Under the pieces are notes generated by a model, which saw only the letters and a program-made list of their open reading frames with translations, made no database searches and was not told the origin of the DNA. From contig NZ_AGBX01000001.1 in assembly GCF_000225825.1 (NCBI RefSeq), positions 496,001 to 560,000 of the forward strand: a DNA stretch of 64,000 nt, read 5' to 3'. Position numbers and translations under genes: made by a program. This document shows, piece after piece, positions 20,416-38,296 of this stretch; position 1 is the stretch's first letter; each line of letters starts with the position of its first letter. Source of the stretch: Brachybacterium squillarum M-6-3 (GTDB taxonomy: Bacteria; Actinomycetota; Actinomycetes; Actinomycetales; Dermabacteraceae).

Positions 20416-21337
20416 ATGAGGGGTGCTCGGGTGGTGCGGGCGGGGTTGTCGTTCTCGGATCGGTCGGAGATCTCCACCGCTTCGAAGGCGGGCTGGGGAG
20501 TGCGGACCGCCAGGTACGGAAGTCGCCGCCGATCCGGTGCTGCAAGCTCGCGTGGAGGCGGACCTGGTGGCGTCGTGGACGCCGAATGAGATCGCGGGCC
20601 GCTTGCGTCTGGAGGCTGCAGACCCGACCGTGGAGCGCATGGGCAACTCTCCCGACGCTGCGGGCCCGACCGTCTCTGGTGAGGCGATCTACCAGTACAT
20701 CTACGCGATCCCCCGGGGCGAACTCGTCCGCCGCGGGAACTTCTTGCAGTCCAAGCGGACCACGCGGAGGCCCCGAACGACGGGCCGGTCCCGGGGCGGG
20801 CCGATCATCGGGATGGTCCCCCTCTCGGGGCGGGGCGAAGACGCCGCCGAGCGCCGCGTTCCCAGGCATTGGGAAGGGGACCTGATCATCGGGAAGAACG
20901 GTGCCTCCTGCGCGGCGACGCTGGTGGAGAGGATGAGTGGCTTCACCGGCCTGCTCGCCCTGCCCTCCAAGCACGCCGAACACGCGGCGGGTGCGGTGAT
21001 CGAGTACTTCAACGTTCTGCCCGAGATGATGCGTGGCTCGTTGGCCTGGGACCAGGGCTCTGAGATGGACCAGCACGCGAGAGTCTCCCTGGCCACGGAG
21101 ATGCCGGTCTACTTCGCCGACCCGCACTCGCCCTGGCAGCGACCCAGCAACGAGAACACCAACCGGCTCTACCGGGAGTACCAGCCCAAGGGCACAAAGA
21201 TCCCCGACCACCAGCCCTACCTGACAGCGATCGCGGAGGAGATCAACAACCGGCCCCGCCGCCGACTGGGATACCTCACCCCCACCGAGGCCTTCACCCG
21301 GCTACTGGCCGGCGAGCCTCAGAATCTCCTATGTTTG
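20416..21337 (+). pseudogene. IS30-family transposase, internally deleted and 3'-truncated
   Basis: The N-terminal helix-turn-helix part is in one frame from ATG 20416 (GLSFSDRSEISTASKAGWGV). From about 20515 the protein continues in another frame (AADPVLQARVEADLVASWTP), so roughly 50 residues have been lost with a frameshift. The catalytic DDE core is otherwise present: PRHWEGDLIIGKNGA (first D), SLAWDQGSEMDQHA (second D) and WQRPSNENTNRLYREY (E region). The tail stops matching IS30 after LLAGEP (about 21320), where the IS110 element begins, and the right terminal repeat is absent. The element cannot move by itself. Confidence 0.8.
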
Positions 21338-22408
21338 TCAAGCGGCGAGTTGGGCGCGGGCTGCGGTGGTGAGGTGGCGGTAGATCTCGCGGGCGAGGTA
21401 TCGCTTCAGGCAGCGACGAATTTCGCGGAGGGTGCGTCCTTCAGCAGTGCGGCGCTCGACGTAGGCGCGAGTTCTTGGGTCCATGCGCATGCGAGTGACG
21501 ATGGCCATGTGGAGGGCGCGGTTCAGACGGCGGTCACCTCCGCGGTTGATGCGGTGCCGCACGGTGTTGCCCGAGGACGCGGGGATCGGGCTGGCGCCGG
21601 CGAGGCTGGCGAACGCAGCCTCGGATCTGATCCGACCTAGATGCGACCAGGACGTCAACGCGACGGCGGCGGTGACCGGGCCGATGCCGGGCTGGTCGAG
21701 CAGGCCACCAGCGGGGCTCTGGCGAACAAGGTCTGTGATGCGCTTGGTGATGTCCTTGAGCTCCTTGTCGAGCGCGGCGACCCGTTTGCCGAGCCTGGTG
21801 GCCTCGCCACGTGCGGTCGCCGTGGCGAGGGCTTCATCGCGGGCCCGCCATGCGGCAGTTGCGTCGATTTGGGCCTGGGTGAGCGGGCGGCGAGCGTCGA
21901 TGCCGAGGTCGACGACGCGCAGCAGCGCGGTAAGCGCGTTGATCGTCGCGGTGCGCTCGGTGCTCATGTGGTCGCGGGAGGCGAGCAGCACCTTGACTGC
22001 CGCGCGGACCCCATCGTCGGCGCGCGGTTCGCGCAGCTGCGTCTCGTGCAGCGGGAGGGCTGCAGCAGCGATACGGCGTGCATCGAGCGGGTCAGACTTG
22101 CCGATCGCGCGGTTCGCGCGGGCGTTCATCCGCGGAGCCTCGACGACCGTGTATCCGTTGTCCGCGGCTACTGCGCGCAGACGAGCACCGTAGGTACCGG
22201 TGCCCTCGATCACCCAGAGCACAGTGACGTCACCGCCGGTGCGGCGCCCGGCCCACGTCACGGCCCGGGACAGGCCAGCGGCGGTGGCTGGAAACTGGGC
22301 CTCATCAACGATCTCGCCGGTCGGGCAAGCGAGTATTGAGACGGCGTGGTTGCGGGCGTGGGTGTCCACGCCGATGACGAACGGACGAGCATGCGCGACG
22401 ATAGCCAT
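21338..22408 (-). CDS. IS110-family transposase (recombinase)
   Basis: This 356-residue IS110-type recombinase has an N-terminal RuvC-like DEDD domain (VIGVDTHARNHAVSILACPT, WVIEGTGTYGARLRAVA, IGKSDPLDARRIAAAAL). Its C-terminal Tnp_20 domain contains LDQPGIGPVTAAVALTSW and the conserved serine region SPIPASSGNTVRHRINRGGD. ATG 22408 is preceded by GAGGAGAGGAG. The protein is full length and the only apparently intact transposase in this cluster. Its 3' end abuts the truncated IS30 element, and its 5' side leads into a non-coding stretch next to the truncated ISL3 gene. IS110 recombinases act with an element-encoded bridge RNA. Confidence 0.92.
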   Translation of the reverse strand: MAIVAHARPFVIGVDTHARNHAVSILACPTGEIVDEAQFPATAAGLSRAVTWAGRRTGGDVTVLWVIEGTGTYGARLRAVAADNGYTVVEAPRMNARANRAIGKSDPLDARRIAAAALPLHETQLREPRADDGVRAAVKVLLASRDHMSTERTATINALTALLRVVDLGIDARRPLTQAQIDATAAWRARDEALATATARGEATRLGKRVAALDKELKDITKRITDLVRQSPAGGLLDQPGIGPVTAAVALTSWSHLGRIRSEAAFASLAGASPIPASSGNTVRHRINRGGDRRLNRALHMAIVTRMRMDPRTRAYVERRTAEGRTLREIRRCLKRYLAREIYRHLTTAARAQLAA

Positions 22409-22688: not shown

Positions 22689-23915
22689 TCAGCCAGAGCC
22701 AGACTCACAGACGGCCTCGGTGCCGCCGTTGCTCGCGCCGTCGGTTTCGAAGTAGGCCAGGAACGCTGTCCGCCAGCGGCGCAGGGTCTTCCCGAGTCTG
22801 GCGATCTCGGGGATCGGGCAGGACGGCAGGGAGGCGATGAGCCTCTCGGCGAGCTGTCGCCCTCGTGCGGGTGTGGGCTGGTGGAAGACGTCGCGGAGGT
22901 CTTGGGAGCAGTGGTAGGCGACCTCGACCGCGACATGATCGGGATGCGCCGCGAACGCGCTGGCCAGCCGAGTCTGCTGGCGCGGGGTGAGGCGTTCGCG
23001 CCCCGCGCGGAGGATGTGGCGGATGCCGTAGAGGGGATCTCCCTTGCGGCCGCGGTGGCCGAGGGTCTCCTGCTGGATCCGGCGGCGAACGTCATCGACC
23101 GCCGCCCCGCCGAGCTTGACGATGTGGAAGGCGTCCAGCACGCAGGTCGCATCTTCGAGCTGGTCATCGATCGCGTTCTTATATCCCTGGAACGGGTCCA
23201 GCGTCGCGATCTCGACCTTCCGGCGGAACGTCTCGCCCCGCTTGTCCAGCCAGTCTCGGTAGGCCTTGCCGGATCGGCCGGGGACCAGGTCCAGCAGCCT
23301 GGCGGTGGGGTGGGGTCCTCGGGTCAGGTCGACCATCCCGGTGAGCTCCTTCGGGCCGCGCCGGCGCGGGTCCCGGTGGTGCCAGATGTGCTCGTCCACG
23401 CCCAGGACCTGCACTCCCTCGAACCGGGACGGGTCGTTCGCAGCCTCGATCAGGAGTGGTCGGACCTGGGACCAGACCGTGTTCCACGTCGTGCCGAGCT
23501 GGCGAGCAAGGCCCTGGATCGTCGCTCCCTCGCGGCGGAGCTGACCGATCGCCCAGCGGATCGCGCGCGTGCTCAGCAGGCCCCGCGGAGCGCAGACCTC
23601 CGGGTCCTGCTCCACGAACGAGACCACCTCGCAGATGCCCTCGTGGCAGATCCAGCGGCGCTTGCGCCACCGGATCCGCACTGGACGGCCCGCCCAGGGC
23701 GCATCGATCACCTCGACCATCACTCGGCCGTGACCAGCGGCGATGACTCCGCAACCCGGGCATCCGGCCACTGGATCGCAGGACTCGACCTCGAGCACCA
23801 GGCCCGTACGGCCCTTCACCACCGAGGCCAGATGGAGGCTGGGGAAATCGAGGAGAAGATCGCAACGGTCGCAGCGGCCGAGCGCGTCAGAGCAGGCGCA
23901 CGTAGAGTTGGGCAT
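22689..23915 (-). CDS. ISL3-family transposase, C-terminally truncated
   Basis: This 408-residue ISL3 transposase has the zinc-ribbon-like N-terminus (CDPVAGCPGCGVIA), the HTH region, and a DDE core with LGVDEHIWHHRDPRRRG, EIATLDPFQGYKNAI and VLDAFHIVKLGGAAV. The conserved closing motif appears only as ASNGGTEAV and then turns into an unrelated CESGSG stop. The final 30 or so residues (normally NG.IE..RR.A.GFRN...) and the element's right end are lost at about 22710. The start at 23915 follows AAGGACC. The break faces the IS110 left end, so a deletion there is likely. Probably inactive. Confidence 0.85.
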   Translation of the reverse strand: MPNSTCACSDALGRCDRCDLLLDFPSLHLASVVKGRTGLVLEVESCDPVAGCPGCGVIAAGHGRVMVEVIDAPWAGRPVRIRWRKRRWICHEGICEVVSFVEQDPEVCAPRGLLSTRAIRWAIGQLRREGATIQGLARQLGTTWNTVWSQVRPLLIEAANDPSRFEGVQVLGVDEHIWHHRDPRRRGPKELTGMVDLTRGPHPTARLLDLVPGRSGKAYRDWLDKRGETFRRKVEIATLDPFQGYKNAIDDQLEDATCVLDAFHIVKLGGAAVDDVRRRIQQETLGHRGRKGDPLYGIRHILRAGRERLTPRQQTRLASAFAAHPDHVAVEVAYHCSQDLRDVFHQPTPARGRQLAERLIASLPSCPIPEIARLGKTLRRWRTAFLAYFETDGASNGGTEAVCESGSG

Positions 23916-24437
23916 TGTCGAGGTCCTTGAGATCAGCGGGGGTAGAAGTCCGCTCATCATCGAGGACCTCGACGTCTATCCCCAGCGACCCGACGCCACC
24001 GGCGCGCCCACACTCAACTCTGAAGAGCCCGATAAGCGGACGGTGAGACGGATGAAGGGTGTTCAAGCAGTTCAACGTCGCCGATTTCCCTCTGAGACAC
24101 GTCGGATCCCCATTCCCCAGGTACGTCACGCCAGCGCTTTCAACGCGCCACCGGCCTTCCGCAATGCCCGCCGTCGATGTAGAAGGCCCATTGGCTACCC
24201 TCTCGGCCCGACTTCCACGCCGTTGAGCACGAACCAAAGCACAGAGCGGTCGCCACAGTCCCGACGGATCAACAGGCTTCAGATCATGTCGTGAAGAGGC
24301 CCAGCCTGCGCAGATCCAGGTAGAGTGCAAGACACTGCACGCCAGGAGCTCACCAGGGGGAGCTCACTCTCGCCACTCGGCGGCAGCGAACCGGGCTGGC
24401 TCGCCGCAACTTCGCATCGCAGAAGGAAAGATGCCGC
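23916..24437. other. Gene-free stretch upstream of the defence operon
   Basis: This 520-base region lies between the ISL3 element and the helicase gene. I find no convincing gene. It should hold the ISL3 left end and the promoter of the defence operon, but no clear terminal repeat or promoter stands out. A short direct repeat, GGAGCTCAC, occurs at 24346-24354 and 24360-24368, about 70 bases before the helicase start, and could be a regulator site. AGAAGGAAAG at 24421-24430 is the ribosome-binding site of the helicase gene. Confidence 0.4.
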
Positions 24438-27400
24438 ATGGAGGTGTTCGACAACGTCTCTCAGCTGTGGGGCGACGATCTTCGCTCGGAGCTGAAGCGT
24501 TCTTCGAAGGTGCGCATCGCCGCGAGCGCCTTCTCGATCTTCGCGTTCGACGCTCTTCGCCAGGAGCTGGAGGGCGTCGACGAGGTTCAGTTCCTCTTCA
24601 CATCACCGGCGTTCCCGGGAGAGGCATCGGCCGGCAAGGAGAGGCGCCGATTCGGGGTTGACCACTTGAACACGACGGAGTCCCAGCTACTCGGCACCGA
24701 GTTCGAGCTCCGGCTCCGTAACGCTATGACCCAGCGATCGATCGCGCGCGAGTGCGCAGAGTGGATACGGCGCACCGCCCGATTCCATGCCAGCACCACT
24801 CCCGGCGAGCAGGAGACCCTCACCCTCGACGATTCAGTGCTCTACACGGGGTTCAGCGGCTTCACCGCCCCTGACCTGGGATACGGGGGCAGTGGCCGAG
24901 CCTCGCGCTACATCATCAAGGATGATTTCCCGCAGAACACCGCACGTTTCCTCGATCGCTTCGAGCAGCTGTGGGCAGATCCGGAACGATCTCGCGACGT
25001 CACCAAGGAGATCACGGACCTCGTCGCGACGGTGTTCGCCGAGAACTCACCTCGGCACATCTACTTCGTGATCCTCTACAACATCTTCGCGGAGTTCCTC
25101 GAGGATGTGCTCACCGATGCGATGCCTGACGACCGCACCGGGTACCGGGACTCCGTCATCTGGAAGGCGCTCTACAACTTCCAGGAGGACGCTGCAACAG
25201 GAATCATCAACAAGCTCGAGCGCTATAACGGGTGCATCCTCGCCGACAGCGTGGGACTCGGGAAGACGTTCACTGCACTCGCGGTCATCCGGTACTACGA
25301 GCTGCGCAACAAGGATGTCCTCGTCCTCGCGCCGAAGAAGCTGAGCGACAACTGGACCACGTTCACCCAGAATCGGCGCTCGAACCCCTTCGCCGGCGAG
25401 CGGTTCCGGTACGACGTGCTCGCACACACAGACCTGCAGCGCGAGCGCGGCTCCTCGAACGGCATCACCCTGGATGATTTCAACTGGGGCGCCTACGACC
25501 TGGTCGTCATCGACGAGTCCCACAACTTCCGCAACGCCGTCCACCACGAGGACCGCGAGACCCGCTACGACGCCCTCCTGCGCAAGGTGATCCGGGAGGG
25601 AGTGCGCACGAAGGTCCTCATGCTCTCGGCCACCCCGGTCAACAACCGGTTCACGGATCTCCGTAACCAGCTGGCGCTCGCCTATGAGGGAGACACGGAG
25701 CGGTTCACCGCGAACCTCCCGATCGACACGTCGCTCGACGAGGTGTTCCGCGACGCGCAGGCCGCGTTCTCAGCCTGGTCGAAGCTGCCTGCCGAGGAGC
25801 GCACCTCGGCAGCGATCCTGGAACGTCTTGACCTGGACTTCTTCTCACTACTGGATGCCGTGACGATCGCCCGCTCGCGCAAGCAGGTCGCGAGGTTCTA
25901 CGACACGAGTGCGATCGGAGCGTTCCCTGAGCGTCGGCCACCGGTCTCGGTCTCGGCGCCATTGTCGCTACGCGAGGATGCCCCGGGCTTCGAGCACATC
26001 GCCGCCCAGCTCGATACCCTCACGCTCGCGACCTACACCCCACTCGGGTACGTGCTCGCGAGTCGCAGGCTGAAGTACGAGGAGCTGTACGGCAATGTCG
26101 GTGCCGGCCAGAACCGCCGCAGCGGAAGCGTTGCAAATCTTGGCGCGCACTCGCGCGAGCTCGGCATACGGCGGCTCATGACCACAAACCTCCTCAAGCG
26201 CCTGGAGAGTTCGATCGAGGCCTTCAGGTTGACGCTCCGAACGGTTGCACGGCGTATCGACGAAGATCTGACCGCCCTGGAGCAGGGCCGCGCCGTGGAA
26301 GACGACTCCGAGGCGATCGAGAACTGGGACGACGAGAGCGAGGAGACGGAGCTGACCGCCACCGTCGGTTCGACCGTCGCCATCGACATCGCAGATCTCG
26401 ACGTGATCTCCTTCCGCCGCGACCTCGAGACGGACCGTGACGTGATCCGCGACCTGCTCGCTGCTCTCGAACCGATCGACGCCGACGGCGACGAGAAGCT
26501 GCGTGAGCTGATGCGGGTGATCGATCAGAAGGTGAAGGAGCCGCTGAACGAGGGCAACCGCAAGGTGCTGGTGTTCTCCGCCTTCGCGGATACTGCGGAG
26601 TATCTGTATCAGCACGTTGCTCCAGCACTCGAACGCGGAGGATTGAACACCGCGCTGGTCACGGGAACGCGAGCCCCGAAGAACACCCTCGGGCCCGGCC
26701 TGGACTTCTCCTCGACTCTCACGCTGTTCTCCCCTCGTTCGAAGAAGCGCGACGTGCTCATGCCGGAGGAGACGCGGGAGATCGACGTGCTCATCGCGAC
26801 GGACTGCATCAGCGAGGGGCAGAACCTGCAGGACTGCGACATGGTGGTCAACTACGACATCCACTGGAACCCGGTGCGGATCGTGCAGCGCTTCGGGCGT
26901 GTGGACCGCATCGGGTCGACGAACTCGACGATCCAGTTGGTGAACTTCTGGCCCGATGTCGACCTCGATCAGTACATCCATCTGGTGGAGCGGGTCGAGA
27001 ACCGGATGCGGATCACGGACATCACCGCGACCGGTGACGACAACGTCCTGGAGCCCGCTGACAGCGAGGACGTCGCGTATCGTCACGAGCAGCTGCGCCG
27101 TTTGAAAGACGAGGTCATCGATCTCGAGGATGTGCGTGGCGGCGTCTCGATCACGGATCTCGGGCTCAACGATGTGCACCTGGATCTCCAGGCCAGGCTC
27201 CGCGAGGACCCCTCGATCGCTGACGCACCCAAGGGGCTGCACGCGGTGGTGCCCGCCGATCCCGCCTCCGGACTCGTCCCCGGGGTGATCTTCGCGCTGC
27301 GCAATGTCCGAGCCGATGGGACGTTCCAGCGGGGCAACCGACTGCACCCGCACTACCTGGTCTACCTCGATGAGCAGGGGAACGTCGTCACCGCGCACAC

Positions 27401-27707
27401 CGAGGTGAGGAGGCTGCTCGATCTACTGCGCTCCGCGTGCCGGCGGTACGACGATCCGCTGCCCGAGGCTTTCGAGCCCTTCAACGAGGCGACTGCTGAC
27501 GGCGCCGAGATGGACGGGTACTCGCAGCTCCTCACTGCCGCGATCGACTCCATGGCGCACCGCGAGGAGGAGGACCTGATCGGCAGCCTCTTCACCGCGG
27601 GGCCGACGGCACAGCCCACGCCAAGCCTCGGCGGACTCGACGACTTCGAGCTGACGGCGTTCGTCGCGGTCGTCGACCCGGTACAAGGAGGCAGCGACGC
27701 ACGATGA
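24438..27707 (+). CDS. PLD-like/SNF2-type DEAD/DEAH helicase, defence operon gene 1
   Basis: A 1089-residue superfamily 2 helicase/translocase. Residues about 1-190 resemble the phospholipase-D-like domain found at the front of such helicases (KVRIAASAFSIFAFDALRQE, ARECAEWIRRTARFHAS, LYTGFSGFTAPDLGYGGSG). I cannot find the catalytic HxK motif, so this domain may only bind. The motor has Walker A ILADSVGLGKTFTALAVI (near residue 268), DEAH box VVIDESHNFRNAV (near 358), LMLSATPVNNR, and motifs V and VI in IATDCISEGQNLQ and IVQRFGRVDRIGS (to residue about 826). A 260-residue C-terminal region follows. It heads the six-gene run and overlaps the DUF4391 gene (ATGA). A role in sensing or translocating on invading DNA is inferred. 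Confidence 0.9.
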   Translation: MEVFDNVSQLWGDDLRSELKRSSKVRIAASAFSIFAFDALRQELEGVDEVQFLFTSPAFPGEASAGKERRRFGVDHLNTTESQLLGTEFELRLRNAMTQRSIARECAEWIRRTARFHASTTPGEQETLTLDDSVLYTGFSGFTAPDLGYGGSGRASRYIIKDDFPQNTARFLDRFEQLWADPERSRDVTKEITDLVATVFAENSPRHIYFVILYNIFAEFLEDVLTDAMPDDRTGYRDSVIWKALYNFQEDAATGIINKLERYNGCILADSVGLGKTFTALAVIRYYELRNKDVLVLAPKKLSDNWTTFTQNRRSNPFAGERFRYDVLAHTDLQRERGSSNGITLDDFNWGAYDLVVIDESHNFRNAVHHEDRETRYDALLRKVIREGVRTKVLMLSATPVNNRFTDLRNQLALAYEGDTERFTANLPIDTSLDEVFRDAQAAFSAWSKLPAEERTSAAILERLDLDFFSLLDAVTIARSRKQVARFYDTSAIGAFPERRPPVSVSAPLSLREDAPGFEHIAAQLDTLTLATYTPLGYVLASRRLKYEELYGNVGAGQNRRSGSVANLGAHSRELGIRRLMTTNLLKRLESSIEAFRLTLRTVARRIDEDLTALEQGRAVEDDSEAIENWDDESEETELTATVGSTVAIDIADLDVISFRRDLETDRDVIRDLLAALEPIDADGDEKLRELMRVIDQKVKEPLNEGNRKVLVFSAFADTAEYLYQHVAPALERGGLNTALVTGTRAPKNTLGPGLDFSSTLTLFSPRSKKRDVLMPEETREIDVLIATDCISEGQNLQDCDMVVNYDIHWNPVRIVQRFGRVDRIGSTNSTIQLVNFWPDVDLDQYIHLVERVENRMRITDITATGDDNVLEPADSEDVAYRHEQLRRLKDEVIDLEDVRGGVSITDLGLNDVHLDLQARLREDPSIADAPKGLHAVVPADPASGLVPGVIFALRNVRADGTFQRGNRLHPHYLVYLDEQGNVVTAHTEVRRLLDLLRSACRRYDDPLPEAFEPFNEATADGAEMDGYSQLLTAAIDSMAHREEEDLIGSLFTAGPTAQPTPSLGGLDDFELTAFVAVVDPVQGGSDAR

Positions 27708-28387
27708 GCGATGCTCGCCCCACGGCACCCGGCCAGGCGTTGGTCCGCTGGCCCGTTTCTGCACGTATCGACCGGGTGGTCCCGAAGCGTACGCTCGCCT
27801 CCGCTGCGTCGACTCCGGCGGCAGTGCGCCAGAAGTTGACGGACGATGTGGAGCACGTGCGCTGGCTGTTCACCTTCTCGCCCGCGCTCACGACTCTTCC
27901 CGGCACACCGGAGGTGCCGGAGTTCGTCGTCATCGGGATCGAGCTGCGAGCAGGCGACCTCGACGCCGGCACGTTGGAGGTGCTGGACCGATCGATGCCG
28001 AGACGAGTGATCTTCGAGCTGTCCCGCACGGCCAGAGAAGGTCAGGAGCACCGCATGGCGGCATTCCTCAGCGCACGCGGGCCAGGAGGTCGAGGCCAGT
28101 ACGTGACCTCCGCGTGGGTCCCGGCCGAAGCGCCCCGGGCTCCCCTGCCCGCAGCGATCGATCTCGAGGCGCTGTACTTGGCGGTTCTCGAGCCGCTGCT
28201 GCCCGCCCCGCGCGTCCCTGGCTCTCGCGTGTCAGAGGTGGCTGAGAGAATCGAAGCCATTGCGACGCTCGATCGCAGGATCACCGCTCTAGAGCGCAAG
28301 ATCCAGCGTGAGGTGCAGTTCAACCGACAAGTCGCACTGCGCCAGGAGCTGCGTGAGCTGCAGCGCGAACGCGATGCACTGTCCTGA
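27704..28387 (+). CDS. DUF4391-type protein, defence operon gene 2
   Basis: This 227-residue soluble protein matches my recollection of DUF4391 in layout. It has a VKWPVSARIDRVVPKRTL-like opening, the VEHVRWLFTFSPALTTLP strand, VPEFVVIGIELRAGDLDAGT, LDRSMPRRVIFELSRTAREG, and a charged coiled-coil end (DRRITALERKIQREVQFNRQ). Function is not established. In other genomes DUF4391 genes sit between a helicase gene and type III restriction-modification genes, as here. The start overlaps the helicase stop by four bases, so the two are probably made in balanced amounts and may form a complex. The coiled coil is a likely interaction surface. Confidence 0.75.
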   Translation: MSDARPTAPGQALVRWPVSARIDRVVPKRTLASAASTPAAVRQKLTDDVEHVRWLFTFSPALTTLPGTPEVPEFVVIGIELRAGDLDAGTLEVLDRSMPRRVIFELSRTAREGQEHRMAAFLSARGPGGRGQYVTSAWVPAEAPRAPLPAAIDLEALYLAVLEPLLPAPRVPGSRVSEVAERIEAIATLDRRITALERKIQREVQFNRQVALRQELRELQRERDALS

Positions 28388-28421
28388 TCACTCCCCCGTC
28401 CGCTCCCACCGAAGGAAACGC

Positions 28422-30419
28422 ATGGACCACTTGAGAATGCACTCAGCAGACCTCACGGCGCGCAACATCGACCAACTGGCCGAGCTTTTCCCAGCCGTGG
28501 TCACGGAGACCCGGGACGAGCTTGGCGAGGTGAAGCGAGCGATCGACTTCGACCTGCTGCGTCAGGAGCTCTCCGATCATGTGGTGGAGGGGCCCCAGGA
28601 GCGGTACCAGCTGGACTGGCCTGGGAAGCGGGAGGCGCTGTTCGCGGCGAACGCCCCGATCGCGAAGACCCTGCGGCCGCAGCGCGAGGAGTCGGTCGAC
28701 TTCGACTCCACGAAGAACCTCTTCATCGAGGGCGACAACCTGGAGGCTCTCAAGCTCCTCCAGGAGAGCTACCTGGGCAAGGTCAAGCTCATCTACATCG
28801 ATCCTCCGTACAACACAGGTCATGACTTCGTATACAACGACAGCTTCGCCCAGAGTAGTTCGGAGTATCTCGAGCGGTCCGGCCAGAAGGACGAGTCTGG
28901 CGCGGGCCTCAAGTCCAACCCCGAGTCCAATGGCCGCTTTCACTCGGACTGGCTGAGCATGATGTATCCACGCCTCAAGTTGGCGAGAAACCTTCTGCGA
29001 GATGACGGCGTTCTGGTCGTTTCGATCGACGAGAATGAGCATGCGCACCTCGTGGAGCTCGGTCAACAGATTTTTGGGCTCGACTCCTACGTAGGGGAGA
29101 TCGTTCTCAAAAATTCCAGCAAAAACGACCAACGCTTCATTTCTATTCAACACGAATATATCGTGTTCTTCGTGAAAAGCAGGTCAGTAAACGGCGGACA
29201 ATGGACCGAGCGAAAGGGTGGACTCGAGGACATATATCGCGCATTCGCCAATCTTCGCGCCAGACATGGCGACGACTGGGATGCCATCCACAAGGGTGCG
29301 CAGGCATGGTATAAGCAATTCTCTCCGAGCGACCCCATCTACGGAAGTAAGCACTACTCCTGGATGGATGAACGAGGAGTGTATTTCCCGGCCGACATTT
29401 CCGGACCAAACGACGGTCAGTACGTCTACCCGGTCATCCATCCAGTAACCGGGGTGCCCGTCAAGGAGCCCAGTCGAGGCTGGGCATTCCCCGAGTCGAC
29501 AATGGACAGAATGATCGCCGAGGGCAGGGTGCATTTTGGCCCCGATCACCACGGGGTACCGAAGCTTAAGACATATCTCAGCGGAACAGAGGATCAGAGC
29601 CTCACAAGTGTACGCTTCGTGGACGGACGTGCGGCCTCTAAGCGACTTAGGCAACTATTCGGCAATAAGGTATTCACGAACCCCAAAGACGAAATCCTGC
29701 TTTCCGACATCTATGCCGCCCTCGGGGTTGGCGATTCGGATATTATTCTGGACATGTTCTCTGGGTCGGGATCTGCGCTCCATGCCGCATGGGAATTCGG
29801 CAAGAAGAATGGGCGACATCCGCGATTTATTGGAATTCAGATTGCAGAGCATCTGCACGACTCCCTAAAGACGGCTCAGGGTGCGGCGCGACAAATCACA
29901 GCAAACGCAATAAATATGCTCGAGGAGCTCGAGAAACCTGCCGTCGTTAGTGAGATAGCAAAACAAAGACTTCGTGTCGCAGGAAGGCAAATTGGTATTG
30001 ACTCGCAAGTCGACACTGGATTCCGGTCTATGAAAATAGATACGACGAACATGGCAGACACACTCCGGGTACCAGATTCGCTCGCCCAAGGCGAGCTCAC
30101 CGGACTGGTAGACAATGTGAAGCCCGGCCGCAGTGGCGAGGACCTGTTGTTCCAGGTCATGCTCGACTGGGGGCTCGAGCTCAGCCTTCCCATCGCCCGG
30201 GAAGAGATCGACGGCCGCGAAGTGCTCAGCGTGGACGACGACGCGTTGCTCGCCTGCTTCGCACAAGACGTCATCCCTACGCTGATCACCTCGTTGGCAG
30301 CACGGAAGCCACTGCGCGTGGTGTTCCGCGACTCTGCTTTCGTGACCGACTCCGCACGGATCAACGCAGAACAGGTGTTCGCCGAGGTCTCCCCCAGCAC
30401 TGACGTCAAGGTCATCTGA
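28422..30419 (+). CDS. Type III-like DNA methyltransferase (Mod), defence operon gene 3
   Basis: A 665-residue beta-class N6-adenine methyltransferase. Motif IV LIYIDPPYNTGHDF (about residue 125) precedes the SAM-binding motif I LDMFSGSGSALHAAWEFG (about 443), the order expected for type III Mod proteins. The target-recognition region lies between and after them. ATG 28422 is supported by GAAGGAAA seven bases upstream and by the conserved DLTARNIDQLAELFPAV opening. The stretch from about 29100 to 30080 is visibly richer in A/T and in AT-ending codons than either side, which suggests that the specificity region was exchanged by recombination. It should methylate host DNA and set the recognition site for Res. 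Confidence 0.93.
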   Translation: MDHLRMHSADLTARNIDQLAELFPAVVTETRDELGEVKRAIDFDLLRQELSDHVVEGPQERYQLDWPGKREALFAANAPIAKTLRPQREESVDFDSTKNLFIEGDNLEALKLLQESYLGKVKLIYIDPPYNTGHDFVYNDSFAQSSSEYLERSGQKDESGAGLKSNPESNGRFHSDWLSMMYPRLKLARNLLRDDGVLVVSIDENEHAHLVELGQQIFGLDSYVGEIVLKNSSKNDQRFISIQHEYIVFFVKSRSVNGGQWTERKGGLEDIYRAFANLRARHGDDWDAIHKGAQAWYKQFSPSDPIYGSKHYSWMDERGVYFPADISGPNDGQYVYPVIHPVTGVPVKEPSRGWAFPESTMDRMIAEGRVHFGPDHHGVPKLKTYLSGTEDQSLTSVRFVDGRAASKRLRQLFGNKVFTNPKDEILLSDIYAALGVGDSDIILDMFSGSGSALHAAWEFGKKNGRHPRFIGIQIAEHLHDSLKTAQGAARQITANAINMLEELEKPAVVSEIAKQRLRVAGRQIGIDSQVDTGFRSMKIDTTNMADTLRVPDSLAQGELTGLVDNVKPGRSGEDLLFQVMLDWGLELSLPIAREEIDGREVLSVDDDALLACFAQDVIPTLITSLAARKPLRVVFRDSAFVTDSARINAEQVFAEVSPSTDVKVI

Positions 30420-30422
30420 GCT

Positions 30423-32117
30423 ATGTCCGCATCCGACACTTCCTCCTCCCCGCGCCCCGAGGACCTCCTGGACGGGCTTCTCGTGGCGTGGGAGGGTGAG
30501 GTGCTCGAGTGCAAGCACGCTGAGAACTCATACGACCTGGACAAGCTCGGTAAGTACTTCTCCGCGCTCAGCAACGAGGCCGCCTTGCACGGCATCCAGA
30601 GTGCATGGATGCTGCTGGGAATCGACGACCGCTCCCGCAGCGTCGTTGGAACCCGTGCGTTCTCTCGGCCAGGACAGAGCAACGACCTCAAGCAGAAAAT
30701 CGCCGAGCACACCAGCACAAAGGGCACGTTCCGTGGCATCCACGAAGTACACCACCCAAAGGGTCGTGTACTGATGCTCGAGATCCCCGCAGCACCACGG
30801 GGTCAAGCCGTTGCCTGGAAGGGTCACGCCTACGGCCGTTCCGGAGAGAGCCTCGGTGCGCTTCCACTCGACAAGTTCGACGAGCTGCGTGGCCACGACC
30901 CTCGCGGTGACTGGACCGCTCAGACAGTCCCTGACGCCACCATCGCGGACCTCGACCCCGCCGCTCTCGCAGCAGCCCGGGAAGGCTTCTCCAGCCAGCA
31001 CTCCATCCCTCGAGAAGAGATCGATGACTGGTCAGACGACGAGTTCCTGGCACGCGCCCATCTCACTCAGCAAGGGAAGCTCACGCGCTCCGCGTTGCTC
31101 CTTCTCGGAGCCCCGTCGAGTGCAGGCCTTCTCACCGGCGTCTCTGTGCAGATCAGTTGGGTGCTCGACGCCGAGGAGCGCGCCTACGAGCATTTCGGCC
31201 CACCGTTCCTGCTCAACACCACGAAAGCCTACGAACGCATCCGCAACTTCCAGGTGCGAATGCTTCAACCCGGCACCCTGATCCAGACGGAGGTGCCCAA
31301 GTACGACAGAGACGCTGTCCTCGAAGCGATCCACAACTGCGTCGCCCACGCGGACTGGGCGTCCGGCGCACGCATCGCGCTGCGCGAGCATTCGGACCGC
31401 ATCGTGCTCGAGAACGCCGGCAGCTTCATCGAGGGGGCCAGCGTCGAGGATTACGTGATAGGTCAACGAGTCCCGAGCAGGTACCGCAATCCGCATCTCG
31501 TCGAGGCTATGGTCTCGCTGAACATGATCGACAGCATCGGATACGGGCTTCGCCGCATCCACGACTCACAGCGCAAACGGTTCCTCCCGCTGCCCGATTA
31601 CGAGTTCCCGCGTGACAACGAGGTGCGGACTACGATTTACAGCCGCGTCATCGACCAGAACTACAGCGAACAGCTAATGGCCCACACGGACCTCGACCTC
31701 GCTGACGTACTCGCACTGGACAGGGTGCAGAAGGGGCTTCAGATAGCCACCGAGGCCCGCGCTCGGCTCCGTCGCGCACGGCTCATCGAGGGGCGGGCAC
31801 CCCACGTCCGCGTCAGTTCGACAGTAGCGGTCGCCGCAGGCACCGAGGCGGAGTACGTTCAGGCACGCGCCACTGAGAACGCGCACCTGGCCCAACTGGT
31901 CAAGAACCTGATCACGCAGTTCGGGCCCGCCTCACGAAAGCAGATCGATCGCGTGCTGGACAGGTACGTCGACGAGAACCTCACCGAGAGTCAGCGCCGC
32001 GCTCGCGTCTCCAATCTCCTGACACGCATGCGCAAGGCGGGCACGATCCACAACGCTGGTTCGCAGCAGCAACCTCGCTGGGTCCTCGGTCCTGAGCCGC
32101 CGGACACTCAAACATGA
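30423..32117 (+). CDS. AlbA_2 (Schlafen-type) and HATPase-domain protein, defence operon gene 4
   Basis: This 564-residue protein begins with an AlbA_2/Schlafen-like nucleic-acid-binding domain (VAWEGEVLECKHAENSYDLD, SNEAALHGIQSAWMLLGIDD, HAYGRSGESLGALPLDKFDE; residues about 20-155). A middle region carries RSALLLLGAPSSAGLL. A GHKL-type ATPase fold follows (AVLEAIHNCVAHADWASGAR, DRIVLENAGSF, residues about 300-360), then winged-helix-like segments at the C-terminus. Such proteins recur beside restriction-modification genes, where they may sense or regulate. It starts four bases after the mod stop and lies between mod and res. It could instead be a transcriptional regulator of the operon. Confidence 0.85.
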   Translation: MSASDTSSSPRPEDLLDGLLVAWEGEVLECKHAENSYDLDKLGKYFSALSNEAALHGIQSAWMLLGIDDRSRSVVGTRAFSRPGQSNDLKQKIAEHTSTKGTFRGIHEVHHPKGRVLMLEIPAAPRGQAVAWKGHAYGRSGESLGALPLDKFDELRGHDPRGDWTAQTVPDATIADLDPAALAAAREGFSSQHSIPREEIDDWSDDEFLARAHLTQQGKLTRSALLLLGAPSSAGLLTGVSVQISWVLDAEERAYEHFGPPFLLNTTKAYERIRNFQVRMLQPGTLIQTEVPKYDRDAVLEAIHNCVAHADWASGARIALREHSDRIVLENAGSFIEGASVEDYVIGQRVPSRYRNPHLVEAMVSLNMIDSIGYGLRRIHDSQRKRFLPLPDYEFPRDNEVRTTIYSRVIDQNYSEQLMAHTDLDLADVLALDRVQKGLQIATEARARLRRARLIEGRAPHVRVSSTVAVAAGTEAEYVQARATENAHLAQLVKNLITQFGPASRKQIDRVLDRYVDENLTESQRRARVSNLLTRMRKAGTIHNAGSQQQPRWVLGPEPPDTQT

Positions 32118-32125
32118 GGAAAACA

Positions 32126-32142
32126 AGAAGGCACCTCCTTCT
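32126..32142 (+). terminator. Small hairpin after the AlbA_2 gene
   Basis: AGAAGG and CCTTCT pair around a five-base loop directly after the AlbA_2-protein stop. There is no T-run. It lies in the only sizeable gap (151 bases) of the defence operon and could attenuate or process the message before res. Confidence 0.3.
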
Positions 32143-32268
32143 CACTGGCCCTCCTGCATCACCCCAGGTCAGCATGTTTTCACCCTTGCGCTGACGCAAA
32201 CATCCACCGCTACGCAAGGCGGTGTGACCCACGTTCCTCACCGCCGCTCCCACGCTCCAAGGATCCCC

Positions 32269-35200
32269 GTGAAGCTCCAGTTCAAGCACCAGCAGTACCA
32301 GACCGATGCGGTCGACGCTGTCGTCGACTGCTTCGCCGGGCAGCCCCGCAGCGACGGCGTCAGCTACCGCATTGACCCCGGCGTGCGCCGCCAGCAGCGC
32401 ACCGGCGACGACTCCGGATTCCGCAACGAGAAGATCGCGCTGAGCGACCGGGAGCTCCTGGAGAACATCCAGGCCGTTCAGCTCGACCCGCGCCGCAACC
32501 TACCTACGAGCAAGAAGCTCGAGTACAGCCCCGCCGCACCGAGCGCACCGAACCTCGACATCGAGATGGAGACAGGGACCGGCAAGACCTACGTCTACAT
32601 CAAGACGATCATGGAGCTGCACCGGCGGTACGGGTGGAGCAAGTACATCGTCGTCGTCCCCTCCGTCGCGATCCGCGAAGGCGTCATGAAGACGTTCCAG
32701 ATCACCGGCGACCACTTCCAGCAGGAGTATGGCACCAAGCCCCGTGCCTTCGTCTACGACTCCAGCCGGTTGCACGAGCTCGAGGCCTACAGCTCCGACG
32801 CCGGAGTGCAGGTCATGATCATCAACATCCAGGCCTTCAACGCAACCGGCAAGGACAACCGGCGGATCTACGACGTGCTGGACGATTTCCAGTCCCGCCG
32901 GCCGATCGACGTGATCTCCGCGAACCGCCCCATCGTCATCATCGACGAGCCGCAGCGTCTCGAAGGCACGGGCAAGAAGGTCTCCAAGTCACTCGAGGCG
33001 CTCTCCCGGTTCAATGCGCTGTTCGTGCTGAGGTACTCCGCCACCCACAAGGTGCAGCGCACCCTTGTGCACCGGCTCGACGCCGTGGATGCCTACAACC
33101 AGAAGCTCGTCAAGCGCATCGCCGTACGAGGTATCACCGTGAAAGGCCTCGCCGGAACGGACGCGTACCTGTACCTCGACTCGATCCAGATCGCCGCCGG
33201 GAAGAACCCTCGGGCGCGGCTGGAGCTCGAAGTCCAGTCGAAGTCCGGTGCGATCACTCGCAAGGTCAGGCTCCTGGACTACGGCAGCAACCTGCACGAC
33301 GTCTCCGGCGGGCTGGAGGCATACTGGGGGCTTTTCATTCGGAGCATCGACGCTGTCCACGACACCGTGGAACTCAGCAACGGCGATGTGCTCGAAGCAG
33401 GTCAGCTCTCCGACCGCGACAGTAACGAGGGGGCAAAGCGCCGCATCCAGATCCGAGAGGTCATCGCCGCTCACCTTGCCAAGGAGCGGATGCTCCACCC
33501 TCAGGGCGTTAAGGTCCTCTCCCTGTTCTTCATCGACGAGGTCGCGAAGTACCGCGACTACACCAGGGAGGACACCCTCGGGGAGTACGCACGCATCTTC
33601 GAGGAGGAGTACGTGGCCGCCGTGTCCGAGCTGCGCGAGCAACTGGCTTTGGACGGCTCCGAAGCGGGGTACCTCTCCTTCCTCGATCGAGATGAGGCCG
33701 ACGATGTTCACGCCGGGTACTTCTCCGTCGACAAGAGGACCAGTCGCCTGATCGATCCAAAGGTTGCTGGGCGCGGCGAGGACAAGGGCCTCGCGACCGA
33801 CTGCGACGCCTACGACCTCATTCTGCGGGACAAGGAGCGGCTGCTCTCCCAGACCGAGCCCGTCCGCTTTCTGTTCAGCCACTCGGCTCTGCGAGAGGGC
33901 TGGGACAACCCCAACGTCTTCACGATGGGGATGCTCAAGAAGTCGGACAACACCGTCTCCCGCCGCCAGGAGATCGGCCGCGGGCTCCGCTTGGCGGTCG
34001 ATCAGACCGGCGAGAGGATCGACCATCCCTCCATCGTGCATGACGTCAACGAGCTCACCGTCGTCTCCGATGAGTCATACACCGACTTCGTCAACGGACT
34101 GCAGAAGGAGATCTCCGAGTCCCTGACAGCACGCCCACGCAAGGCCACCGCCGCCTACTTCGCCGGGAAGGCGTTGTTGCACTCGAAGACGAACGAAGAG
34201 AAGGTCATTACGGAGCAGGATGCGAACCTCATCCACCGCTGGTTGATCCGCCACGACGTCATCGACGAGAACGATCACCTCACCGAGAACTGGCACACGC
34301 GCGATAAACTCGATCCGATGCCCTCCCTGCCCGAGGGACTCGACGAGTACCACTACCAGATCGCTGACCTCATCGATGCCCTGCACCGTGACGTCCCGGT
34401 CGCAGAGAACAGTCGCCGCACCAAGCAGATCCCTCTGAACGAGTCCCTCTTCCGCGGAGAACAGTTCCAGGGGCTCTGGCAGAGGATTCGACGACGCGCC
34501 GCCTACCAGGTCGACTTCGACTCCAGAGCACTCATCGACTCCTCGGTCACGGCATTGAACTCCTCCCTGCACGTCACCCGGATGAGCTACACCGTGAACA
34601 CTGGTGCGCAGAAGGAACAGCTCGAGGTCGAGGACGTCGACAGCGGTCGCAGCTTCACCGCAGGTCGTCATCGCACCCTCCTCGAGACGGCCACCGTCGC
34701 GTCCCAGGTGCAATACGACGTCATCGGAGAGATTGCCGAGCGCACCCAGCTCACACGCCGCACCGTCGGATCGATCCTCTCCCGGATCGAGGCCTCCATC
34801 TTCGCGAAGCTGCGCCAGAACCCGGAGCAGTTCCTCAGCGAAGCAGCCCGTCTCATCAACGAGCGCAAGGCGGAGCTGATCCTGCAGAACCTCAGCTACT
34901 CCCTGCTCGAGGACGAGTTCGGGGATGAGATCTTCACCGCCGACACCACCAAGCACGATTTCTCGAAGGCGACGCCGCTCACCCGGCACGTCTACGAGTA
35001 CGCCGTCACGGATTCGCAGGTCGAGAGGGACTTCTTCACTCAGCTCGAGCAGAGCGACGAGGTCGCGGTCTACGCCAAACTCCCCCATGGCTTCCTTATC
35101 CCCACCCCGATGGGTGACTACAACCCGGACTGGGCGATCGTGTTCCAGGACGGCGCCGTGAAGCACGTGTATTTTGTCGCGGAGACGAAGTCGACGCATG

Positions 35201-35346
35201 CCGGGGACCAGCGGCGCGTGCTCGAGAACTCGAAGATCACCGCCGCAAGGAAGTTCTTCCGGACCCTGAATGCTGTCTCCGGCTCCGAGGTCACGTACGA
35301 CGTGGTGACCGACTACGACGACCTCATCGCCCGGGCAGCGGTCTGA
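32269..35346 (+). CDS. Type III-like restriction subunit (Res), defence operon gene 5
   Basis: A 1025-residue ATP-dependent restriction subunit. It has an SF2 helicase core with Walker A IEMETGTGKTYVYIKTIM (about residue 100), DExx motif VIIDEPQRLEGTG (about 223), RYSATHKV, and motif VI SRRQEIGRGLRLAVDQ (about 565). A C-terminal PD-(D/E)XK nuclease reads DYNPDWAIVFQDG and VYFVAETKSTHAGD (about 950-975). GTG 32269 is preferred: AAGGA lies upstream and the protein begins VKLQFKHQQYQTDAV, the usual Res opening. A GTG at 32224 would add 15 residues. It should form a complex with Mod and cut unmodified DNA after translocation or sliding. Confidence 0.93.
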   Translation: MKLQFKHQQYQTDAVDAVVDCFAGQPRSDGVSYRIDPGVRRQQRTGDDSGFRNEKIALSDRELLENIQAVQLDPRRNLPTSKKLEYSPAAPSAPNLDIEMETGTGKTYVYIKTIMELHRRYGWSKYIVVVPSVAIREGVMKTFQITGDHFQQEYGTKPRAFVYDSSRLHELEAYSSDAGVQVMIINIQAFNATGKDNRRIYDVLDDFQSRRPIDVISANRPIVIIDEPQRLEGTGKKVSKSLEALSRFNALFVLRYSATHKVQRTLVHRLDAVDAYNQKLVKRIAVRGITVKGLAGTDAYLYLDSIQIAAGKNPRARLELEVQSKSGAITRKVRLLDYGSNLHDVSGGLEAYWGLFIRSIDAVHDTVELSNGDVLEAGQLSDRDSNEGAKRRIQIREVIAAHLAKERMLHPQGVKVLSLFFIDEVAKYRDYTREDTLGEYARIFEEEYVAAVSELREQLALDGSEAGYLSFLDRDEADDVHAGYFSVDKRTSRLIDPKVAGRGEDKGLATDCDAYDLILRDKERLLSQTEPVRFLFSHSALREGWDNPNVFTMGMLKKSDNTVSRRQEIGRGLRLAVDQTGERIDHPSIVHDVNELTVVSDESYTDFVNGLQKEISESLTARPRKATAAYFAGKALLHSKTNEEKVITEQDANLIHRWLIRHDVIDENDHLTENWHTRDKLDPMPSLPEGLDEYHYQIADLIDALHRDVPVAENSRRTKQIPLNESLFRGEQFQGLWQRIRRRAAYQVDFDSRALIDSSVTALNSSLHVTRMSYTVNTGAQKEQLEVEDVDSGRSFTAGRHRTLLETATVASQVQYDVIGEIAERTQLTRRTVGSILSRIEASIFAKLRQNPEQFLSEAARLINERKAELILQNLSYSLLEDEFGDEIFTADTTKHDFSKATPLTRHVYEYAVTDSQVERDFFTQLEQSDEVAVYAKLPHGFLIPTPMGDYNPDWAIVFQDGAVKHVYFVAETKSTHAGDQRRVLENSKITAARKFFRTLNAVSGSEVTYDVVTDYDDLIARAAV

Positions 35347-35359
35347 GGAGATCTAGGTG

Positions 35360-36826
35360 ATGCTGCGACACAGTCATCCCGATGCGCATGACGTTCTGCG
35401 GTCCCTGCGCCGGGACATCGAGGAAGAGCATCCCTCTGAGAAAGCGCGTGTGCCTGCACCAAAGCCAGCCCGGCCCGGCCGGACACCACCGAGCCCTGGT
35501 CGGGAGCCTCTGCGCGAGCGGCCATCCCGGAGCCAGGACCTTCCCAGCTCGCAGACGAGGCATCCCGAGAAGGCGCTCGAGGCCAGCGGAACCACCTCGC
35601 GCATTGCGGCGCCCAGGCCCACGCAGACTTCCAGGGCCGCGAAAAGGCCAGCACTTCGCCCCCGCACTGGCGATCGGCCTCTCACCGCCGAGCAGAAGAA
35701 GGCCCAAGCGCAGCTGGCTGCAGAGACACGTCGCGCTGAAGCATCCGTACCCTCTGACCTGCTCGCGTACATCGACCTGAAGCTGCGCACCAAGAAGAAC
35801 CGCCTGGCGGGAGTATCCGTTACCGTCGCCCGGGAGGCGCTGCTCCGCGTCGTCGCCGCAACGCACACCCGAAAAGTCCCCTACTCCGAGATCCCTGTAC
35901 TGCTGCGACGGGAACTGCGCAGAGAGCTTCCGAGCCAGACGGCGACGCGTACGGCAGAGCGAGTCCTCACGATCGTCGAGCCCTATCAGCTCATCCCCCA
36001 GCGCCCTTCATCGACTCCTTGGCAGAAGGCGAAGGCGGTCCCGTGCCGGAATGACATTCCCGCTCCCCCGAGGTCCAAACCCGCGACGAGGGCAACAAAC
36101 ACGACCCTGGATATTTCCGAGCACGAGCTCCCGAAGGATCCCTCCACGCTCTATCGAATGCTACGCGAGACCGACCTGGCTCGAGACTTCGGATACGGCG
36201 TCATGGTCCTCACTGATGTCTTCCGGGCACTCCATGCCGGGCAACAGCCACATGTCACCGGCGTGTTCCTCGACGCTTTGGCGAACAGGTTCGCGCTCGT
36301 CGTCACCCCTGAAGGGCTGCGGGAGAGTCGGAAGGACTTCGACCGTGCCAATGCTGCGCTGGAGGACGTCCAGAACCTTCCCACCACCAAAGGCATCGTC
36401 CTCACGGACCGAGGCAATCGACTGATGGCCTGGCGGATGGATCACGCCACCGCTGAATGCGCGAGCATCGAGATCAACGCCCTCAGCTCGTATCTGACCA
36501 AGGGTCTGCTGCCCTCCGTGAAGTACGAGGTCGCAGGAAGGCGCGACGGCTCGGCAGGGGCTGGCCTTCGGGACCTTGCCGGATTCGCCCGGAACCTCCG
36601 CACGCGAGAGTCCCGGTTGCGCCCGCTGGCAGTGGACGGCTCCGGGAGCACCACGCGCGAGTGGACGGGGAAGCAGTTGCGGCGCATGGGCCACAAGAAT
36701 GCCCACCGCGTCCGTGAGCATCTGCGTCTGATCCCGACCACCGGCGAGAGGACCGTCGTCAGCGAGCACTCCCGATACGGGGTACCGGGCTGGACGGAGA
36801 CGACGCTGAAGATCCGGTTGCTGTGA
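35360..36826 (+). CDS. Unrecognised 489-residue protein, defence operon gene 6
   Basis: This gene starts 13 bases after the res stop, with GAGGAG at 35345-35350 and either GTG 35357 or ATG 35360, so it belongs to the same transcript. Residues about 20-110 are Pro/Arg/Ser-rich and probably disordered. A charged helical segment (LTAEQKKAQAQLAAETRRAE) precedes a folded part with IVEPYQLIPQRPSSTPWQKA. The C-terminal half (about 255-489) reads like a globular domain: STLYRMLRETDLARDFGYGV, VVTPEGLRESRKDFDRANAA, KGIVLTDRGNRLMAWRMDHA. I do not recognise a family, nuclease motif, Walker motif or membrane segment. Operon membership is the only clue to function, and it is the best candidate for a novel subunit. 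Confidence 0.75.
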   Translation: MLRHSHPDAHDVLRSLRRDIEEEHPSEKARVPAPKPARPGRTPPSPGREPLRERPSRSQDLPSSQTRHPEKALEASGTTSRIAAPRPTQTSRAAKRPALRPRTGDRPLTAEQKKAQAQLAAETRRAEASVPSDLLAYIDLKLRTKKNRLAGVSVTVAREALLRVVAATHTRKVPYSEIPVLLRRELRRELPSQTATRTAERVLTIVEPYQLIPQRPSSTPWQKAKAVPCRNDIPAPPRSKPATRATNTTLDISEHELPKDPSTLYRMLRETDLARDFGYGVMVLTDVFRALHAGQQPHVTGVFLDALANRFALVVTPEGLRESRKDFDRANAALEDVQNLPTTKGIVLTDRGNRLMAWRMDHATAECASIEINALSSYLTKGLLPSVKYEVAGRRDGSAGAGLRDLAGFARNLRTRESRLRPLAVDGSGSTTREWTGKQLRRMGHKNAHRVREHLRLIPTTGERTVVSEHSRYGVPGWTETTLKIRLL

Positions 36827-37775: not shown

Positions 37776-38296
37776 GCGGCCTCCTCTGTCCGGTGCGGCG
37801 TGTTCGCACTGGACCTGCGGCGATGCGAGCTGGCACAGGGCGCGGGTTCCCGAGACTTCGGCTGTCCACAATCCCCCTCAAGGGCAGTGCGATCTGTTTG
37901 CCCCCTTCGGCACACTGGCCGTCATCCCCAGCATCCCGCGGCAAGGAGCGGCGGTAATCGTCGATCGCCGTGCGCTTCAGCCGGACCAGCGTCAGCCGCG
38001 CCCCCTCCCCCAGGCTCATCCTGTCGCCGATGGCCCGCATCGTGACCATCAGACGACCACGCCCTGCGAGCGGCGGAGCGGCCCCGTGCGGCCGGTGCCG
38101 TCGCGCTCCGAACGAGTGCGGTCACCGGCGTCCTGCGACTGCACTCGCGGGTCGTGCGCAATGCTCATCTCGGGATGCTACGACGCAGTGCGGACAGGCC
38201 GAAGGGAACGCTGGCGAGCTCACCCACGACGACGCGCAGCCGGGACCGACCGAGAACGACAGCACTCGGAAGCAGCCACGCGGCTACTCTCGATCC
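37776..38296. other. Divergent promoter region between mrr and a PD-(D/E)XK gene
   Basis: This 521-base gap separates two divergent gene starts, so it should hold both promoters. A minus-strand frame from about 38049 (MRAIGDRMSLGEGARLTLVR, then LKRTAIDDYRRSL) looks somewhat protein-like for 50 codons but then degenerates. It may be a small gene or a remnant. I see no clear promoter boxes, terminal repeats or RNA gene here. Confidence 0.3.

Follow-up and report, generated by a model that had tools for sequence, protein, structure and literature searches.

A widespread four-gene variant of type III restriction–modification combines Mod and Res with an SNF2-type helicase and a DUF4391 protein

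Introduction

Classical type III restriction–modification (R-M) systems comprise two genes only. The locus described here, at positions 24438–36826 of a 64,000-nucleotide stretch of the Brachybacterium squillarum M-6-3 genome (contig NZ_AGBX01000001.1, positions 496,001 to 560,000; hereafter the window), encodes a type III DNA methyltransferase (Mod) and restriction endonuclease (Res) that share the usual catalytic motifs with EcoP1I/EcoP15I and LlaFI, alongside an SNF2/SF2-type helicase, a DUF4391 protein and two further proteins. While the original prediction had grouped all six genes into one defence system, our comparison of related loci indicates that four of them, i.e. helicase, DUF4391, Mod and Res, stay together, with one of the other two being an optional, effector-like insert (16 of 91 loci) and the last a near-orphan. 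Thus, the locus is a real and widespread four-gene variant of type III R-M.

The closest published case is Eco86II. Passages of PMC8259958 (which we take to be Murray et al. 2021) describe type III systems, in more than 500 genomes, in which mod is preceded by an additional helicase-like gene, leave its role open and report ~140 bp of non-coding DNA between helicase and mod in BspHIV. In Eco86II and BspHIV, as in the window locus, the type III Mod and Res genes are preceded by a gene for an additional SF2 helicase-like protein. For comparison, we took Eco86II to be the helicase–Mod–Res locus of NCTC86, an equation of our own as the text gives no coordinates. The Eco86II helicase is of the DrmD type (PDLC02619, 663.5 bits), whereas that of the window belongs to another subfamily, and the two are similar in their motor motifs only (28–33%). 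No DUF4391 gene separates helicase and mod in Eco86II, whereas one lies there in the window, and Eco86II Res aligns to window Res over 45 residues only. Given the different helicase subfamily and the intervening DUF4391 gene, assignment to an Eco86II-type three-gene system was rejected. The four-gene set was not found as one system in the literature searched, and the consulted sections of a BREX survey (PMC12839542), a YprA/ARMADA preprint (PMC12458937), an R-M review (PMC12707154) and papers on a WYL regulator (PMC9122601) and phosphorothioation (PMC10853773) do not describe it. As our family scans likewise returned no named, tested system for the set, the earlier statement to that effect stands.

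A conserved four-gene core

Relatives of the locus were gathered in two ways. A helicase-ascertained sample comprised the best 80 of at least 581 relatives from a scan of genome contigs, and DUF4391-ascertained samples comprised 396 genomes of the window's phylum, 378 of the phylum to which a Stenotrophomonas genome belongs and 198 of that of a Bacteroidia genome; the window's own genome is among these, as are two genomes selected for carrying DUF4391. In the helicase-ascertained sample, DUF4391 was present in 78 of the 80 loci, the remaining two contigs stopping at the helicase, and 72 loci kept the order helicase–DUF4391–Mod–Res, with some genes split (Mod in L103; Res in L058, L065 and L071). 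Among the eight exceptions, a contig edge truncates five (L060, L069, L089, L093 and L100), two Bacteroidota loci (L102 and L105) place Mod–Res or Mod–AlbA–Res upstream of helicase–DUF4391, and L079 retains a Mod fragment only, without Res. Complete four-gene loci (n = 69) come from nine phyla, including one candidate division. Since the same order recurs across phyla, it is not a product of chance, and helicase, DUF4391, Mod and Res almost certainly form one four-gene unit.

Ascertainment by DUF4391 gave a consistent picture. In the window's phylum, DUF4391 occurred in 13 of 396 genomes and adjoined the helicase in 12 of these; in the thirteenth (G380), the last 21 helicase residues persist directly before DUF4391. 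Conversely, full-length helicases (11 genomes at ≥355 bits and one contig-cut copy) were found only in DUF4391 genomes of this sample, in which matches of ≤262 bits to the PADLOC helicase family C3a139 were not checked individually. Of the 378 genomes, 22 carried DUF4391; 18 of the 22 loci had the helicase immediately upstream (as a contig-cut piece in L197), and a contig edge lay on the helicase side of the other four. Mod was present in 20 of these loci and Res in 17, absences coinciding with contig ends except in L202. In the 198-genome sample, ten genomes carried DUF4391, two of them as weak partial matches, and the 12 loci held nine helicase, nine Mod and seven Res genes. The helicase is missing from the three loci whose DUF4391 matches are weakest: no partner gene was found in L226, L227 combines a DUF4391 fragment with Mod and Res, and L228 is considered below. 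These counts leave out the rows of G449 (already covered as L049) and G450 (already covered as L105) and a 51-position fragment in G604, and our first DUF4391 profile missed L023–L025, where Pfam detects the domain. DUF4391 is thus found in ~3–6% of the sampled genomes of three phyla, nearly always in the four-gene setting. The helicase–DUF4391–type III neighbourhoods that the original prediction mentioned for other genomes are therefore widespread; its suggestion that a further motor protein and DUF4391 join Mod and Res holds, and its question as to whether all six genes stay together is answered positively for the four core genes and negatively for the AlbA_2/HATPase gene and the 489-residue protein gene.

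Two deviations from the standard arrangement were seen. In genome G346, the operon is split, with ~130 kb separating helicase–DUF4391–Mod (L182:9933–13388) from Res and a fragment of Mod (L183:1139–2953), which suggests that an insertion or rearrangement broke mod. Five loci (L016, L027, L031, L085 and L098) carry tandem Mod genes, each with one helicase, one DUF4391 and one Res; presumably, these represent two specificities possibly sharing one Res.

The core proteins also share their history to differing degrees. Distance matrices compared by Mantel tests for the 69 of 92 loci in which all four proteins are full-length correlated most strongly for helicase and Res (r = 0.922), helicase and DUF4391 (0.909) and DUF4391 and Res (0.864), followed by helicase and Mod (0.735), Mod and Res (0.728) and DUF4391 and Mod (0.681); for each of the six pairs, none of 999 permutations equalled the observed value. 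Given the helicase, the partial correlation between Mod and Res was 0.19. When only inter-phylum pairs were considered (63 loci and 1338 pairs, after dropping five two-Mod loci and one without an assigned phylum), r was 0.937 for helicase–Res, 0.852 for helicase–DUF4391 and 0.677 for Mod–Res.

At short evolutionary range, four Escherichia coli loci were compared, chosen from ten records found by BLAST because the query was partly uncovered or differing. Their helicases (98.7–99.5% identity), Res (99.6–99.8%) and DUF4391 proteins (90.8–99.1%) are nearly constant, while Mod identity is 66–73%: its two ends are 80–100% identical, and residues 211–390 fall to 0–46% per 30 residues. The middle of a type III Mod is its recognition region. 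The simplest reading of these alignments would be target switching, in which the Mod recognition region is swapped on a constant helicase–DUF4391–Res chassis.

Assignment of the core proteins

All six open reading frames (ORFs) were recovered at their expected coordinates on the + strand, and PADLOC and Pfam uphold the earlier identification of Mod, Res, helicase, DUF4391 and HATPase proteins. Mod (28422–30419; PADLOC MTase_III, 4.5e-194; Pfam N6_N4_Mtase) lies in an ORF that opens at 28308; its start is best set at 28422, as the type III methyltransferase match begins there, at residue 39. Likewise, Res (32269–35346; PADLOC REase_III, 3.4e-301; RE_endonuc, 4.6e-31) lies in an ORF opening at 32224, and its start is best set at 32269 since the family match begins there, at residue 17. 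With these starts, the predicted spacing of the six genes, a 4-base overlap followed by gaps of 34, 3, 151 and 13 bases, is reproduced. Mod contains DPPYNTG and FSGSG, as expected of a beta-class amino-methyltransferase with motifs I and IV, and Res contains GTGKT, IIDEP and PD...ETK, as expected of an SF2 motor with a PD-(D/E)XK nuclease. Judged by sequence, both are ordinary type III proteins whose motifs are complete.

The helicase (24438–27707, 1089 residues) is 48–61% identical to 38 of 41 homologues and 41–43% to the remaining three. Across 42 aligned helicases of many different phyla, the motor motifs are invariant and column identity averages 63%. The best PADLOC family, C3a139 'HKD+Snf2' (7.4e-112), is only a model label, and the match covers profile positions 162–924 of 948 but not the first part. 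AlphaFold2 gave a weak model (mean predicted local distance difference test (pLDDT) 73, predicted template-modelling score 0.51). The protein had been described as SNF2/PLD-like; the SNF2 motor is evident, and the N-terminal domain can be likened to PLD domains by its GFT..DLG motif (compare GSSNFT..GLG in the L228 helicase). The HxK motif, however, is missing from its expected place in all 42 aligned sequences, taking as its equivalent a strand inferred from the downstream GFT..DLG motif; the site reads mostly F[KR]S. The pattern HxKx(3-5)[DN] within residues 60–260 occurred in four of 90 helicases, at scattered positions. An active PLD nuclease is hence unsupported and, because of the F[KR]S residues at this site, the N-terminal domain is probably not a nuclease.

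Related SNF2-type motors are found in BREX, DISARM, Dpd and Hma/BREX-related systems, but the NCBIfam scores of the window helicase fall far below the curated cut-offs (142 against 610 bits for DrmD), and those of the DrmD, DpdE and BrxH models stem from motor-domain stretches. Among the six proteins of the locus, we saw no partner diagnostic of BREX, DISARM, Dpd or Hma. DISARM was rejected since hits were confined to the motor (DrmD, 142 bits; DrmA model, 69 bits on the helicase); DrmB and DrmC were absent among the matches listed (25 of 49 families for the helicase, 25 of 29 for Mod). BREX/Hma was rejected on the same grounds, with helicase-model hits only (BrxHI, 97 bits; HmaA, 85 bits) and no PglZ, BrxC or DUF499 among the matches listed for the window proteins.

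The DUF4391 protein (27704–28387, 227 residues) matches a single Pfam family above the cut-off, DUF4391 (PF14335, 2.1e-31). PADLOC models match mainly Mod, Res and the helicase, and none matched DUF4391. Its AlphaFold2 model is confident (pLDDT 92) and comprises a small compact alpha/beta domain followed by two long C-terminal helices; P17, P27, K28, E73 and Q205 are invariant in 59 sequences. Comparison of the model with PDB and BFVD returned no fold match at E ≤ 0.001. The family and fold searches support neither a nuclease nor another known fold. DUF4391 may serve as an adapter or in dimerisation. Hachiman (HamA DUF1837 with HamB) resembles the window pair in that a helicase adjoins a small DUF protein; this assignment was rejected, the DUF4391 protein lacking any PADLOC, nuclease-family or fold match. 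In the literature searched, the term DUF4391 turned up only in a domain table of PMC7784981, in the part consulted, where it is enriched in bacterial strains that are nonpermissive for TM7x, an epibiont (3/3 versus 1/10 and 1/10). These small numbers hint that the four-gene system might matter there.

Possible role of the helicase–DUF4391 pair

What might the additional pair contribute? In the mechanism that we propose, Mod2Res would recognise an unmethylated asymmetric site and cut like other type III enzymes, DUF4391 would be a non-catalytic adapter bound to the helicase, and the helicase would be a sequence-independent double-stranded DNA translocase acting on the restriction arm. By pushing, clearing or remodelling DNA-bound Mod–Res complexes, it could raise the efficiency of cutting or lessen its dependence on head-to-head sites. 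Overall, we consider it reasonably probable that helicase and DUF4391 form such a translocase module serving the restriction arm. That the pair acts together with Mod and Res, and not independently, appears likely; that its effect is to enhance restriction and not to protect the host is a tentative proposal. It is somewhat doubtful that the pair lets Mod–Res cut, for example, same-facing sites or protein-crowded DNA, as a general motor module with relatives serving other R-M systems.

Several observations weigh against this proposal. Res family matches occurred in 23 of the 396 genomes of the window's phylum; among them, 12 carry DUF4391, three (G298, G374 and G076) carry an Eco86II-like helicase without DUF4391, and seven lack a helicase in the stretch examined, three of these on contigs shorter than 8 kb (G173 was left out of locus inspection). 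Small Lactococcus and Staphylococcus plasmids carry Mod–Res alone, their Res being nested in the helicase-associated clade. The Lactococcus plasmid Res is near-identical to its counterpart on a Listeria plasmid, which belongs to a locus with the helicase; the gene separating helicase from Mod there is annotated as hypothetical and was labelled DUF4391 by position. An Aeromonas plasmid also carries Mod–Res alone. On a quick Res tree with long outgroup branches, the helicase-plus-DUF4391 label needs five changes, so the pair does not follow one unbroken lineage. The pair is therefore not essential for having Mod–Res. The correlations, in turn, reflect co-inheritance, not physical contact, and the lower values for Mod may partly be due to its fast change, as restricting Mod to 343 conserved columns raises r to 0.785 with the helicase and 0.748 with Res. 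Four other E. coli records, one being the query's own, are 99.6–100% identical throughout. According to passages of PMC8259958, an Eco86II preparation partly cut DNA with peptides of the extra helicase undetected, a point that would equally suit a helicase without a role in restriction.

A further challenge comes from L228 (5172–13481; 198-genome sample), where a helicase 36% identical to that of the window over nearly its whole length, without a convincing DUF4391, precedes a PD-(D/E)XK protein (PADLOC PDC-S02, PD_DExK) and an IIG-like methyltransferase, with no Mod or Res. A DUF4391-like domain in this methyltransferase was not accepted (hhalign probability 15%). L228 suggests that the motor family also serves other R-M chemistries, possibly in a sister system.

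Host protection is one alternative to a role in restriction: an SNF2-type remover would strip Res or Mod from the chromosome or alleviate restriction during replication. SNF2-family proteins can remove DNA-bound proteins, and both the target independence of the helicase and its closer following of Res than of Mod fit this explanation. Type III modification, however, already protects daughter molecules, the unmodified sites sharing one orientation, and Mod–Res loci without the pair persist, whereas a required protector should be lost less often. We thus regard host protection as unlikely. To a similar degree improbable is that the pair constitutes a separate two-gene defence system, with a Hachiman-like sensor helicase and its partner, tightly linked to type III genes. 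The position of the pair on the other side of Mod–Res in L102 and L105 and downstream of Res in L225, as well as the non-type-III partners in L228, speak for such autonomy. Yet HamA is the Hachiman nuclease in the consulted part of PMC12278908, whereas DUF4391 has neither a nuclease fold nor a family match. Moreover, the pair is hardly ever seen alone, Mod adjoins DUF4391 in 20 of 22 loci of the second DUF4391-ascertained sample and in 9 of 12 of the third, and the helicase–Res distances correlate at 0.92. Finally, neutral hitch-hiking of helicase–DUF4391 on a plasmid or island cassette, to which the activity of other type III Mod–Res without such a pair and the Eco86II preparation would lend some credence, is very improbable given that the four-gene set is retained across nine phyla and that the identity of the aligned helicase columns reads as purifying selection.

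The question left by PMC8259958 as to the role of an extra helicase in type III systems recurs here with another subfamily in a similar position; this helicase has a partner of undescribed fold and tracks Res, not the specificity subunit. E. coli holds compact natural loci whose Mod proteins differ, making the helicase role testable there, and we suggest a four-gene rule for annotation tools.

Accessory genes and genomic context

Between mod and res, the window carries a gene for a 564-residue SLFN_AlbA_2 and HATPase_c_4 protein (30423–32117). Of its earlier AlbA_2/HATPase label, the second half is confirmed in the window protein (HATPase_c_4, 3.1e-12); Pfam does not call AlbA_2 there but detects SLFN_AlbA_2 in the 16 other members of a 17-row alignment. 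Of 91 loci, 16 have this gene between Mod and Res (in L065 as a fragment), as do 2 of 34 later loci. In the 91 loci, 52 ORFs are inserted in gaps between core genes; the Mod/Res gap holds 19 of them and the DUF4391/Mod gap 18. Ten longer Mod/Res inserts, scanned singly, comprised four RhuM proteins, one each of Abi_2, Fic, Bro-N and an AbiEii-type ATPase, and two without a family. A family scan of 50 of the 52 ORFs added, among the matches listed (25 of 36 families, one being DUF4391 itself), IVP (4), GmrSD (2), PIN (2) and single AbiJ, OLD, SIR2 and DUF2130 proteins. By their family matches, the inserts match the picture of exchangeable genes with an accessory or backup role, an analogy being prrC inside a type IC locus (PMC12707154, part consulted). 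The AlbA_2/HATPase protein, encoded in a slot shared with RhuM-, Abi- and Fic-like genes, would probably be a backup effector when restriction is blocked.

The sixth gene (35360–36826, alternative start 35357) encodes the 489-residue protein, which, as predicted, matches no recognised family: none in PADLOC, Pfam, NCBIfam or PHROGs, and no PDB relative by sequence. No relatives were found in plasmids or, at the sensitivity of the scan, in genome contigs. One of 57 other genomes, of the same genus, carries a relative (54% identity, two internal stops; L186:9210–11434), which lies 364 bases from a divergent Eco86II-type helicase–Mod–Res locus. The gene is thus twice found near a type III locus, yet it stands outside the conserved system, and its membership is doubtful.

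The region as a whole has a deviating composition, with 58–66% G+C in 2-kb bins spanning 24–36 kb, compared with 67–79% in every other bin of the window, and transposase genes flank it on both sides, ISL3-type upstream and Mutator-type downstream. Based on this low G+C content and the flanking transposase genes, the locus looks like an acquired mobile island. Matches to mobile elements (ISL3-type and Mutator-type transposases and a sub-cut-off rve integrase core) lie at 20423–21640, 22692–23960 and 40915–41805. A scan of the locus for promoters and terminators returned one and four sites, respectively, and thus no excess over shuffled sequences (1.5 and 7.1). Adjoining the operon, an ORF at 37970–39484 matches the nuclease family PDDEXK_4 (1.3e-6) and may be another of the island's defence genes.

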